Shown: positions 39,993 through 44,808 of the stretch, in pieces
Layout: every line of letters begins with the position of its first letter
Numbering within the stretch: the first letter of the stretch is position 1
NCBI GenBank assembly: GCA_004211905.1
Contig: SHBP01000009.1
Span: forward strand, 1-64,000
Direction: 5' to 3'
Length of the DNA stretch: 64,000 nucleotides
From: SAR92 clade bacterium
GTDB taxonomy: Bacteria; Pseudomonadota; Gammaproteobacteria; Pseudomonadales; Porticoccaceae
Program-made: the position numbers and the translations under genes
The notes under the pieces: generated by a model
The model's input: the letters and a program-made list of their open reading frames with translations, nothing else
Databases searched by the model: none
What the model was told of the DNA's origin: nothing

Positions 39993-40376
39993 GTGCCAAA
40001 TAGAGCATTTATACATACCGATAGCGCGCCTGCCGCCATCGGCACATATTCTCAAGCCGTCAAGGTCAATAATACAGTCTATCTTTCAGGCCAGATTCCT
40101 CTCGACCCGCAAACTATGGAACTGGTCAGTGATGATATCTCTGATCAAATCTCTCAAGTTTTTCGTAATTTATCCGCTGTTTGTAAGGCGTCAGGTGGGG
40201 ATTTAAGTAATATAGTGAAACTGAATATTTTTCTCACTGATCTTAGCCACTTCCCTATCGTCAATGAAACCATGGGCCAGTACTTTCATGAGCCCTATCC
40301 GGCAAGAGCTGCCATTGGTGTTCGCGCATTGCCCAAAGGTTCCCAAGTAGAGATGGATGGTATTTTAGTTATCTAG
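39993..40376 (+). CDS. ridA: RidA family reactive enamine/imine deaminase
   Basis: RidA hydrolyses 2-aminoacrylate and similar reactive imines made by PLP enzymes. The 127-residue protein has [20 protein letters not shown] (about 15-34), and the conserved Arg in [23 protein letters not shown]. The start is GTG at 39993 with AAGGAG 6 bases upstream. It follows spoT by 24 bases, the common order. Confidence 0.96.
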
Positions 40377-40851: not shown

Positions 40852-41709
40852 TTAATGAGAAATCTTATCCGATAGGTTTTTTAGTATTGACGTGTATCCT
40901 TCTCTATAGGAGGGGTATTGGAGTTGATAGCCAGTTTGAAGTAACCTTTTATTGGTGTAGCGCCGAGTTCCGGTACGGGATGAGCTTATCTCTTCAGTCA
41001 AGACAACGTTTAACTTCCCAGCTAACCACTTGCGCACGTCATGTTGTGCCGCGGGCTCACAATCAGTTCCTAAGTAGAGCTTTTCCAGTTTTTGTCCATA
41101 TAAGTATCGATTGACTAAATGAGCCAGAAAACCGGCACAATCGTCACTATGAATACGATTACTCCACTGTTTGGGTTGGGCGGGCCTACCTATACCATTC
41201 TTAACACTGCTCAATAAAGCGAGACGCCCAGGACCATAAATCCCTGAGAAGCGCACGATCGTCAGATCACCGGATATTGCTGTCATGATATCTTCTGCTT
41301 TTTTCAGCGCACGTGCAGAAAAACTCACAGGGTTAGCAGTCGAGTTTTCATCAACCCATGAATTTGTACCTTCACCATAGACGCTTGTACTTGATACCCA
41401 TATGACTAACTTAGGCTGATATTCCGCGTTATTAATTGAACTGACAAGTGCAGCTGCGGTATCCACATAAGCTTTTTGATAGGCCTGCTCAGTGCGCGCC
41501 TCTGGGGTCAATGTAGCAATCACTACATCGAACTCCCGAGAGAAAATACCCGCTAATTCCTTACCATTGGTAAGGTCTCCCTTTAGGGGGGTTATGGAAC
41601 TCGGCAGAAATTGAGGATTGCGCTTTAACCCAAAGCATTTATGCTCTTTAGCCAGTCTCGCTGCGACTCTTTGTCCTATATCTCCACATCCGGCTAACAA
41701 TATTTTCAA
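40852..41709 (-). CDS. NAD(P)-binding epimerase/dehydratase-like protein (YeeZ type)
   Basis: The 285-residue protein starts MKILLAGCGDIGQRVAARLA, a Rossmann GxxGxxG fingerprint, and has the extended SDR features VSSTSVYGEGTNSWVDENS (about 105-123) and VRFSGIYGPGRLALL. YeeZ-like proteins are extended short-chain dehydrogenase-like proteins without an established substrate. The Tyr of the Tyr-x-x-x-Lys catalytic pair is replaced by a Ser-Ala-rich segment (SFSARALKKAE), so activity is uncertain. It is divergent from oxyR, about 60 bases apart. Confidence 0.82.
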   Translation of the reverse strand: MKILLAGCGDIGQRVAARLAKEHKCFGLKRNPQFLPSSITPLKGDLTNGKELAGIFSREFDVVIATLTPEARTEQAYQKAYVDTAAALVSSINNAEYQPKLVIWVSSTSVYGEGTNSWVDENSTANPVSFSARALKKAEDIMTAISGDLTIVRFSGIYGPGRLALLSSVKNGIGRPAQPKQWSNRIHSDDCAGFLAHLVNRYLYGQKLEKLYLGTDCEPAAQHDVRKWLAGKLNVVLTEEISSSRTGTRRYTNKRLLQTGYQLQYPSYREGYTSILKNLSDKISH

Positions 41710-41770
41710 TTAAAATACTCTCTGCGATTAAAATTAGCTATTATAGGTATTCTACCATTAAGAGATAGCC

Positions 41771-42694
41771 ATGACGTTAACTGAACTTCGCTATATTGTA
41801 ACACTCGCACAATGTAACCATTTCGGGCAGGCCGCTGATCGCTGTAATGTGACCCAGCCAACTCTGAGTATAGCGGTTAAGAAACTTGAAGGTGAGCTTG
41901 GTGTCAATATTTTTGAACGGTCAAAAAACAACGTTCAGCTAACGCCAATTGGACAGCAAATAGTTGACCAGTCGCGACGTGTGCTAGAAGAGGCCTCTGC
42001 AATTAAAGACATCGCCAAGTCTGGCATGAATCAACTCAATACACCGCTTCATGTTGGGGCGATCTTCACTATTGGACCTTATTTGTTCCCCCATTTTATC
42101 CCGCCATTGCAAAAATCCACACCCAATATGCCTCTGGTTATTGAGGAGAGCTATACCAGCACCTTGCGCAAGCGTCTGAAAAGCGGGGAAATTGATGTGA
42201 TTCTAATCTCTTTGCCATTTAGCGAACCAGATATTGTAGTTCAGCCGCTCTATGATGAATCCTTTGTCTTGTTGATCCCAAAACATCATCCTCTGGCTAC
42301 GAAAAAAGAGATCGAACAGGCAGATCTAGACAATGAGAATGTCCTTATGATGGGAGAAGGGCATTGCTTTAGGGACCAAGTCATCGAGGCTCTCCCCAAC
42401 ATCAATCGTCATGATAGCCCCCAAGCATCCATTAGAACCAAGGCCGAGGGGAGCTCGATAGAAACTCTATGTCATATGGTGGCTTCTGGGTTAGGCATAA
42501 CAGTATTACCGGAATCTGCGGCTATTGGGGCAAAGGAAAGAAATGATGCCCTAGAGATAAAACCCTTTGCTGGCATTTCGCCATCTCGTACGACAGCACT
42601 GGCCTGGCGTAATAGTTTCCCACGACATAAAGCCGTTGACGCATTGCGTAACGCCATCCTCTCCAGCACGCTGAACGGAACGACCAAAAGCTAA
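41771..42694 (+). CDS. oxyR: OxyR-type hydrogen peroxide sensor, resolving cysteine absent
   Basis: The 307-residue LysR-family protein has the helix-turn-helix NHFGQAADRCNVTQPTLS (about 16-33) and an effector domain matching OxyR. The peroxidatic Cys is at 199 in GEGHCFRDQV, with Thr100, Thr129 and His198 also where OxyR has them. At 208, the resolving Cys of E. coli and Pseudomonas OxyR, this protein has Leu (DQVIEALPN); Cys234 in ETLCHMV is an extra Cys nearby. It shares one base with recG (TAATG), the standard oxyR-recG order. It may still sense peroxide through Cys199 alone or with Cys234. Confidence 0.88.
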   Translation: MTLTELRYIVTLAQCNHFGQAADRCNVTQPTLSIAVKKLEGELGVNIFERSKNNVQLTPIGQQIVDQSRRVLEEASAIKDIAKSGMNQLNTPLHVGAIFTIGPYLFPHFIPPLQKSTPNMPLVIEESYTSTLRKRLKSGEIDVILISLPFSEPDIVVQPLYDESFVLLIPKHHPLATKKEIEQADLDNENVLMMGEGHCFRDQVIEALPNINRHDSPQASIRTKAEGSSIETLCHMVASGLGITVLPESAAIGAKERNDALEIKPFAGISPSRTTALAWRNSFPRHKAVDALRNAILSSTLNGTTKS

Positions 42695-44808
42695 TGACTA
42701 CTTTAGGGCTGCATAGAGTCGGTGTCGAAAGCTTACGGGGAGTCGGTCCACAGCTAGCTGTTAAATTGAAAAAGTTAGGTCTTTATAGCCTTCAAGATCT
42801 ACTTTTTCATTTGCCATTGCGCTACATCGATAGAACACAGATAACTCCAATAGGAGGCGTACAACCACAGTCTGAGGTGGTTATTGAAGGCGAAATACGT
42901 GCTAGCGACGTAGTCTTTGGCCGCAGGCGTAGCTTAGTTTGTCGTCTCCAAGATAATAGCGGGACGACTACATTAAGATTTTTTCACTTTAGTCGAGCAC
43001 AACAAGAACGATTGAAAGCAGGCACCCTGATCAGATGTTTTGGCGAGGCTCGGCGAGGAAAATCTGGCATCGAATTCTATCATCCTGAATATCAGCACCT
43101 TGATAAAGATCGTCCAAAATCACTAGATGACACCCTCACTCCTATATATCCCGCCACTGAGGGGGTAACTCAAACTCGTATTAGGGACCTTTGCTCACAA
43201 GCTCTAAAGAAGCTAGATAATCAATCTATTGACGAACTGCTACCTCCTCTTCCGGAAAGCGGCCTATCCCATCAATTGTCTTTCTCCTTAGTCTCTGCCC
43301 TGAAACTTCTGCACAACCCACCCCCTGGTACCGCCCTAAACTTGCTGGCTTGTGGGGAACATCCCGCCCAACAGCGTCTAGCTGCAGAAGAGTTAGTAGC
43401 TCATAATCTAAGCTTGTTGCGCCTAAGGCAAAGAATTCAACAGCAAAAGGCCCCCGTTCTTAGTGAAGATGTGACAGCTAAAAATGCTTTATTGGAACAA
43501 CTGGGCTTTACCCTTACCTCAGCTCAAAATAAAGTTGCCTCAGAAATAAGTGCAGACATCGCATCCTCTGTGCCTATGCTCCGTCTTGTACAGGGTGATG
43601 TGGGTTCTGGAAAAACCGTTGTCGCTGCTATGGCTGCCGTGCAGGCTATCGCTAATGGATCCCAAGTGGCGTTGATGGCGCCTACCGAAATACTTGCTGA
43701 ACAACATAGAATAAACTTTGAGAAATGGTTTAAGCCTTTGGGTATTAGAATCGCGTGGTTAACTGGAAAGATAAAAGGTAAGGCAAGAGAGGCTCAGTTG
43801 TCTGCTATTGACGATGGCAGTGCCAAGATGATCATTGGAACCCATGCCTTATTCCAAGAAACCGTTTTGTTTAATAATCTCGGGCTGAGTATTATTGATG
43901 AACAACATCGCTTTGGTGTGCATCAAAGGCTTGCTCTTCGACAAAAGGGCTTTGATCCAAATTCGATATTAAGTGGGCATGGTTCAGCACCTCACCAACT
44001 CATTATGACGGCAACGCCAATACCTCGAACCCTAGCAATGAGTGCCTATGCGGACCTTGATTGCTCTGTAATTGATGAATTACCCCCTGGCCGCAAGCCT
44101 GTCGATACGTTGGTACTGAGTACCATCAGGCGAAATGACATCATCGAAAGGGTTCGTGCTTCCTGTCTAGAGGGCAGACAAGCATACTGGGTTTGTACTC
44201 TTATCGAAGAATCAGATGTATTAGAGGCCCAAGCTGCTGAAGTCACTGCTAACGAACTGAAATTACTGCTTCCCGAGCTTTCTATTGGTTTAATCCATGG
44301 GCGTTTAAAGCCAAAAAATAAACTTGAGATTATGGAGGCTTTTAAAAACGGCGCTATTAATCTTTTGGTGGCCACAACCGTTATTGAGGTCGGCGTAGAT
44401 GTTCCCAATGCAAGCTTGATGATTATCGAAAATTCTGAACGTTTGGGCCTATCTCAACTGCATCAGTTGCGTGGACGGATAGGCCGAGGATCACAAGCAA
44501 GTCACTGTGTTTTACTCTACAGCCCACCAATATCTGGAAATGGCAATGCTCGCCTTAAAATAATGCGAGAAACTACCGATGGTTTTAAAATTGCCGAAAA
44601 AGATCTTGAATTGAGAGGCCCCGGTGAGGTGTTAGGTACTCGCCAAACTGGCGATATGCAATTACATATTGCAGATCTACAGCGAGATAGTCATATGCTT
44701 ACTGATATCAAACTCATTGCTGAGTACGTTCTAATCAATCATCCTGACAATGTTGACGGCTTAATCCGTCGCTGGTTAGGCCACAGCGAGAAATACGCCC
44801 AGGCATAA
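42694..44808 (+). CDS. recG: ATP-dependent DNA helicase RecG
   Basis: RecG reverses stalled forks and branch-migrates Holliday junctions. The 704-residue protein has an N-terminal wedge/OB domain (about 60-150; RTQITPIGGVQPQSEVV), Walker A QGDVGSGKTVVAA (about 303), the DEQH box IIDEQHRFGV (about 405) and C-terminal helicase motifs LVATTVIEVGVDVP and QLHQLRGRIGRG. Length is that of E. coli RecG. It is coupled to oxyR by a one-base overlap. Confidence 0.97.
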   Translation: MTTLGLHRVGVESLRGVGPQLAVKLKKLGLYSLQDLLFHLPLRYIDRTQITPIGGVQPQSEVVIEGEIRASDVVFGRRRSLVCRLQDNSGTTTLRFFHFSRAQQERLKAGTLIRCFGEARRGKSGIEFYHPEYQHLDKDRPKSLDDTLTPIYPATEGVTQTRIRDLCSQALKKLDNQSIDELLPPLPESGLSHQLSFSLVSALKLLHNPPPGTALNLLACGEHPAQQRLAAEELVAHNLSLLRLRQRIQQQKAPVLSEDVTAKNALLEQLGFTLTSAQNKVASEISADIASSVPMLRLVQGDVGSGKTVVAAMAAVQAIANGSQVALMAPTEILAEQHRINFEKWFKPLGIRIAWLTGKIKGKAREAQLSAIDDGSAKMIIGTHALFQETVLFNNLGLSIIDEQHRFGVHQRLALRQKGFDPNSILSGHGSAPHQLIMTATPIPRTLAMSAYADLDCSVIDELPPGRKPVDTLVLSTIRRNDIIERVRASCLEGRQAYWVCTLIEESDVLEAQAAEVTANELKLLLPELSIGLIHGRLKPKNKLEIMEAFKNGAINLLVATTVIEVGVDVPNASLMIIENSERLGLSQLHQLRGRIGRGSQASHCVLLYSPPISGNGNARLKIMRETTDGFKIAEKDLELRGPGEVLGTRQTGDMQLHIADLQRDSHMLTDIKLIAEYVLINHPDNVDGLIRRWLGHSEKYAQA

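Follow-up and report, generated by a model that had tools for sequence, protein, structure and literature searches.

The window, i.e. the whole stretch of 64,000 nucleotides analysed here from a SAR92 clade bacterium, carries an oxyR gene whose product lacks the resolving cysteine of classic OxyR. The gene stands between a divergent epimerase-like gene and recG, and the locus has the following features.

39993..40376, plus strand: ridA-like gene, part of the conserved neighbourhood (Pfam Ribonuc_L-PSP)
40852..41709, minus strand: NAD-dependent epimerase-like gene, transcribed away from oxyR and belonging to the conserved neighbourhood (Pfam Epimerase)
41710..41770, no strand: intergenic stretch between oxyR and the divergent epimerase gene
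41771..42694, plus strand: oxyR, LysR-type peroxide regulator without Cys208, 307 aa (open reading frame, Pfam, structural relative, predicted model with fold match)
42068..42070, plus strand: Thr100, peroxide site, codon ACT
42155..42157, plus strand: Thr129, peroxide site, codon ACC
42362..42364, plus strand: His198, peroxide site, codon CAT
42365..42367, plus strand: Cys199 (peroxidatic), codon TGC, first residue of predicted helix 199-207
42392..42394, plus strand: Leu208, codon CTC, site of the resolving cysteine in classic OxyR
42470..42472, plus strand: Cys234, codon TGT, within predicted helix 230-238, equivalent to E. coli R228
42694..44808, plus strand: recG helicase, its start overlapping the oxyR stop by one base (Pfam); marker of the orthologous oxyR locus

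Both HTH_1 and LysR_substrate matched the window OxyR above the Pfam cut-off, which makes it a LysR-type transcriptional regulator, and its best solved relative is P. aeruginosa OxyR (4x6g). The codons of the window bear out what an earlier note had read from the sequence, namely a 307-residue OxyR that has T100, T129, H198 and C199 as classic OxyR does, with Leu (CTC) instead of Cys at residue 208. In the alignments, L208 stands opposite C208 of the P. aeruginosa, N. meningitidis and E. coli OxyR chains. The note had placed the stretch from residue 199 to 208 at 42364-42393, which is the right site but one base off from 42365-42394. The extra Cys234 that it described is present as well (TGT at 42470-42472) and aligns opposite R228 of E. 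coli, counting the E. coli numbering from its C199. The DNA-binding domain has two further cysteines, C15 and C25. P. aeruginosa OxyR (PDB 4x6g, 4y0m) differs from the window protein in having Cys208 for Leu208 and Arg for Cys234, and in lacking three residues that the window protein has shortly past position 208. E. coli OxyR (PDB 1i69, 1i6a; 35% and 32% identity) shares the LysR fold and the peroxide site but works through the classic C199-C208 disulfide switch. Against the NCBIfam OxyR equivalog NF008361, the window OxyR scored 229.9 bits, below the cut-off of 329; two 2-Cys relatives (255.7 and 247.1 bits) and the kat-linked 2-Cys type described below (224.9 bits) also failed, so this cut-off does not separate 1-Cys from 2-Cys types. 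The window genome (2.28 Mb, 38 contigs, 90.9% complete) has one close OxyR, its ten further LysR matches being only 22-31% identical to it. Relatives at 72-95% identity come from records named SAR92, HTCC2207, Porticoccaceae, Cellvibrionales and Pseudomonadales, and the 95% identical OxyR, from another genome (L029, NYWV01000027.1, titled Porticoccaceae), likewise lacks Cys208.

A search of 112 genomes of the window's family returned 58 matches at E<=1e-60. Two of them, in G043 and G044, keep Cys208 and were not counted among the orthologues: their genes (L115, L116) fall outside the family clade, their coordinates place them close to katG or catalase, and the flanks examined (L145, L149) contain no recG. 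Among the remaining 56 orthologues, residue 208 is Leu in 48, Met in three, Ile in three and Phe in two, and in none is it Cys. Counting this residue in relatives had been proposed in the earlier note, and the count establishes a clade-wide trait. H198, T129 and R273 (E. coli R266 by alignment) are each kept in 56/56 orthologues, and C199 and T100 in 55/56 each, with one Ser at either position. recG adjoins oxyR in all 39 family loci with flanks long enough to judge, those of the other 17 being too short.

We then compared these genes with those of the order, where a search of 390 genomes gave 271 matches, 13 of them from the window's family. Of the 258 matching genomes outside the family, 52 were read at one locus each, giving Cys208 in 49, Ser in two (L026, L131) and Asp in one (L199). 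recG adjoins oxyR in 45/52 of these loci, 42 of the 45 having Cys208. The window OxyR is the recG-linked orthologue of the order, as it adjoins recG and the tree places it among the order's 2-Cys OxyRs. In this tree of 105 rows, which was built quickly, with no bootstrap and no inferred root, the 55 different family proteins form one clade (SH-aLRT 100), and residue 208 changes four times and residue 234 three times across the whole tree. Nearly all outgroups have Cys208, which argues for loss rather than gain, and on the tree Cys208 appears to have been lost once, at the base of the window's family. The three other-family loci without Cys208 (L026, L131, L199) look like separate losses. The stretch after residue 208 (window 42395-42406) is conserved as well: Pro209 is found in 56/56 family orthologues, and Asn212 in 47/56 versus 2/52 in other families of the order. 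The dN/dS ratio is 0.084 for the window gene against its nearest relative, with values of 0.019-0.186 in nine other pairs, and the window oxyR is under purifying selection. The OxyR without Cys208 is real, clade-wide and under selection.

Some SAR92 genomes carry a canonical OxyR with C199 and C208 at their katG loci (L178, L186, L187, L188). This kat-/peroxiredoxin-linked 2-Cys OxyR is, like the window protein, an OxyR-type LysR regulator, found in sister genomes, but it is only ~30% identical to the window protein, and both C199 and C208 are present at each of the 25 loci read (L224-L248). In the genus, 11/12 members of this second type lie within 0.7 kb of a katG (four) or 1-cysPrx_C (seven) domain match. 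The window genome carries the 1-Cys type only.

To look for operators, we scanned the 420 bases preceding the KatG domain for the 37-base OxyR consensus and scored the hits against dinucleotide shuffles. The set comprised 28 regions. They came from 22 genomes with katG and the 1-Cys OxyR but no second type; the one other such genome, G090, was left out. An OxyR-type box was found at p<=0.05 in 9/28 regions, with a combined p of 1.6e-8. This significance is overstated, as sites recur among related genomes and the sequences of three divergent katG pairs (G083, G085, G096) overlap. The other 19 of the 28 katG regions showed no significant OxyR-type box. The nine genomes belong to four genera (G039, G059, G069, G087, G093, G094, G107, G108, G109), and fresh shuffles returned the identical nine regions (combined p 6e-7, overstated for the same reasons). 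Seven altered patterns (one reversed, three with changed spacings and three permuted) were found in 0-3 of the 28 regions. The test was not blind, as some of the regions tested are those in which the pattern had first been noticed: in one of the first looks, 6/15 regions from 1-Cys genomes reached p<0.05, and three were significant among the 12 added after the first looks. In the 1-Cys relatives that have katG, putative OxyR-type operators are found upstream of this gene at a frequency above chance. G108 is the only one of the nine box genomes with another OxyR-like gene (E<=1e-40). In three of them, G109 (L087), G108 (L089) and G039 (L111), the box accompanies an OxyR in which C199 is the only regulatory-domain cysteine. 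Among genomes with only the 2-Cys type, 0/16 katG regions were significant, which shows merely that this consensus does not fit those genomes. Not part of these counts are two genomes carrying both types (p 0.04 and p 0.37) and one carrying neither type (p 0.10).

The window itself gave no signal above chance. No clear operator was seen by eye in the oxyR promoter (41710..41770), and the five sites within six mismatches in the window are not above the 2-8 found in five shuffles. Real OxyR boxes often deviate from the consensus by more mismatches, so the lack of a 37-bp box within three mismatches in the window's own genome says little. A search of this genome (91% complete) returned no KatG, catalase or 1-cysPrx_C peroxiredoxin match, whereas AhpC-TSA matched ten times, nine of them above the cut-off, and CCP_MauG once. 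Across genomes, OxyR showed no significant co-occurrence with KatG or catalase. The 1-cysPrx_C peroxiredoxin was found in 46/58 OxyR-positive versus 16/54 other family genomes, with G043 and G044 counted as positive, and within the genus the difference was not significant (19/31 versus 10/19). The family-level association probably stems from shared ancestry.

Taken together, we favour with moderate confidence the explanation that the window OxyR is a functional single-cysteine OxyR that senses peroxide through oxidation of C199. Peroxide would react with Cys199 inside the conserved T100/T129/H198 pocket. With no Cys208 at hand, the oxidised Cys199 would remain a sulfenic acid or react with a small thiol to give a mixed disulfide. 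This modification, rather than an intramolecular disulfide, may shift the regulatory domain, and the shifted OxyR could tune transcription by binding at OxyR-type operators, such as those upstream of katG in relatives. Any target of OxyR in the window organism itself is one that we infer. The sensing pocket is kept in 55-56 of the 56 orthologues while residue 208 is never Cys, which speaks for this explanation, and C199 is the sole regulatory-domain cysteine in five orthologues (L081, L087, L089, L105, L111). The others carry further regulatory-domain cysteines such as C234, C272 or C304, the window protein having C234. Of the three options raised in the earlier note, which also named a C199-C234 pair and tuning to other oxidants, a sulfenic or mixed-disulfide form of C199 fits best. 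Counted against it is that C25 is retained just as strictly, in 56/56 orthologues. OxyR mutants of N. meningitidis also count against it: C208A is reported to repress without being able to activate, while C199S does neither (PMC2881104), so C199 could be kept for structure. The C208Y and C208G changes taken up below weigh on the same side, as do the katG regions that lack a box and the absence of KatG, catalase and 1-cysPrx_C matches and of a box from the window genome.

The window OxyR is likely a 1-Cys variant, as C199 is kept and C208 absent, and by analogy D. radiodurans OxyR (DR0615) offers one distant described precedent for the likely mechanism. That protein, too, has the sensing cysteine but not the other member of the classic pair, and the retained cysteine is reported to be needed for H2O2 sensing and to form sulfenic acid (PMC2225504). 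According to the same paper, D. radiodurans oxyR failed to complement an oxyR mutant of E. coli. It is described there as having one cysteine in all, and the window protein adds C15, C25 and C234, a difference drawn from the published description only. A later paper states its authors' division of OxyR into 2-Cys and 1-Cys classes (PMC3260234). A literature search by title, which covered few subscription papers, returned none on SAR92 OxyR.

Another explanation, which we hold only tentatively, is that the SAR92 lineage evolved a replacement switch after the loss of Cys208. Here, Cys234 on a neighbouring helix would act as a new resolving cysteine and form a disulfide with Cys199 under peroxide. 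Residue 234 is Cys in 28, Ser in three and Arg in 25 of the 56 family orthologues. Cys234 occurs in 28/31 orthologues of the window's genus (SAR92 clade), the other three having Ser (L014, L019, L081), and all 25 orthologues of the family's other genera have Arg234. Since Cys234 is restricted to the window's genus within the family, its origin postdates the loss of Cys208. That C234 arises only after this loss and is then retained agrees with a rewired switch. So does its position, as E. coli R228, its equivalent in the alignment, lies four residues, or one helical turn, past L224, which is reported to pack against C199 (PMC2881104); C234 may thus lie closer to C199 than the 18 Å between C199 and C208. 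However, L014, L019 and L081 have Ser234 yet keep C199, L114 has C234 yet Ser199, and the sister orthologues have Arg234. The more distant L218 (G167, another family) holds C199, C208 and C234 together, along with C211, and has no recG in the flanks examined. The distribution (Arg234 in 25/56 orthologues, with Cys208 lost at the base of the family) excludes C234 as a general replacement of C208, so the C199-C234 pair suggested in the earlier note fails for the family and is a possibility inside the SAR92 genus.

SAR92 bacteria live in sunlit seawater, where peroxide arises photochemically. It is conceivable, though doubtful, that without Cys208 the regulator is mostly decoupled from peroxide, being either constitutively active or a fixed repressor, which would be useful under such a steady supply. 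The substitutions C208Y and C208G have been postulated to make OxyR of E. coli and Vibrio natriegens constitutive, and the Arg201 changes R201C and R201S of E. coli OxyR are listed alongside such activating changes (PMC7038661). Residue 208 is hydrophobic in 56/56 family orthologues, and 15 of the 56 have Gly201 instead of Arg201, all of them from genus g23 (L088, L090-L097, L099-L102, L104, L106). The window OxyR, however, keeps R201, and a redox-blind protein would have no need of a pocket whose C199 is conserved in 55/56, unless C199 is structural.

We consider it unlikely that the window gene represents an old OxyR that is being displaced by the kat-/peroxiredoxin-linked 2-Cys type and now either answers another signal or is in decay. 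The two types seldom share a genome: in the genus, two genomes have both, 29 the 1-Cys type only, ten the 2-Cys type only and nine neither (Fisher p 3.7e-4), and in the family the counts are four, 52, 21 and 35 (p 1.9e-4), but these p-values ignore shared ancestry and the genomes are incomplete. The loss of C199 in one lineage (L114) would fit such a displacement. Against it, dN/dS stays at 0.02-0.19 in ten pairs, and OxyR boxes persist upstream of katG in 1-Cys genomes. The nine SAR92-genus genomes with neither type at the thresholds used are G008, G012, G014, G018, G049, G052, G056, G060 and G071, of which G018 is a single contig of 98% completeness.

It is very unlikely that sensing has moved to Cys25 of the DNA-binding domain. 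Mycobacterial OxyS is, likewise, a peroxide-responsive LysR regulator of katG that has no C199-C208 pair; it is reported to answer H2O2 via Cys25 of its DNA-binding domain, its other three cysteines being dispensable (PMC3260234), and we compared it with the window protein by description only. The strict conservation of C25 in the family agrees with such a move. But C25 is nearly invariant in 2-Cys OxyR too, so it is conserved whether or not C208 is present, and the C199 pocket is kept. As to a sequencing or assembly error at codon 208, its probability is practically nil, since the 56 orthologues without Cys208 each come from another genome and reflect neither a read error nor a chance event.

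In a family of mostly marine bacteria, OxyR has thus kept its sensing cysteine and replaced the textbook partner cysteine, and it probably relies on one cysteine alone to sense peroxide. It has been disputed whether the C199-C208 disulfide is essential to OxyR or whether modifying a single thiol suffices (PMC2225504, PMC2881104). A whole family without Cys208 but with the sensing site, several of whose members have candidate katG operators, makes this dispute testable on natural proteins. The Arg234, Cys234 and Ser234 orthologues provide a ready-made series for tests of a replacement disulfide; a C199-C234 switch, if true, would be a second evolutionary solution and might avoid the large unwinding of the C199-C208 helix. 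One SAR92-genus orthologue, L114 (G063:C22:42740-43740), has Ser199 (GHSFRDQ) and C234 as its sole regulatory-domain cysteine, and is a natural OxyR without the sensing cysteine.
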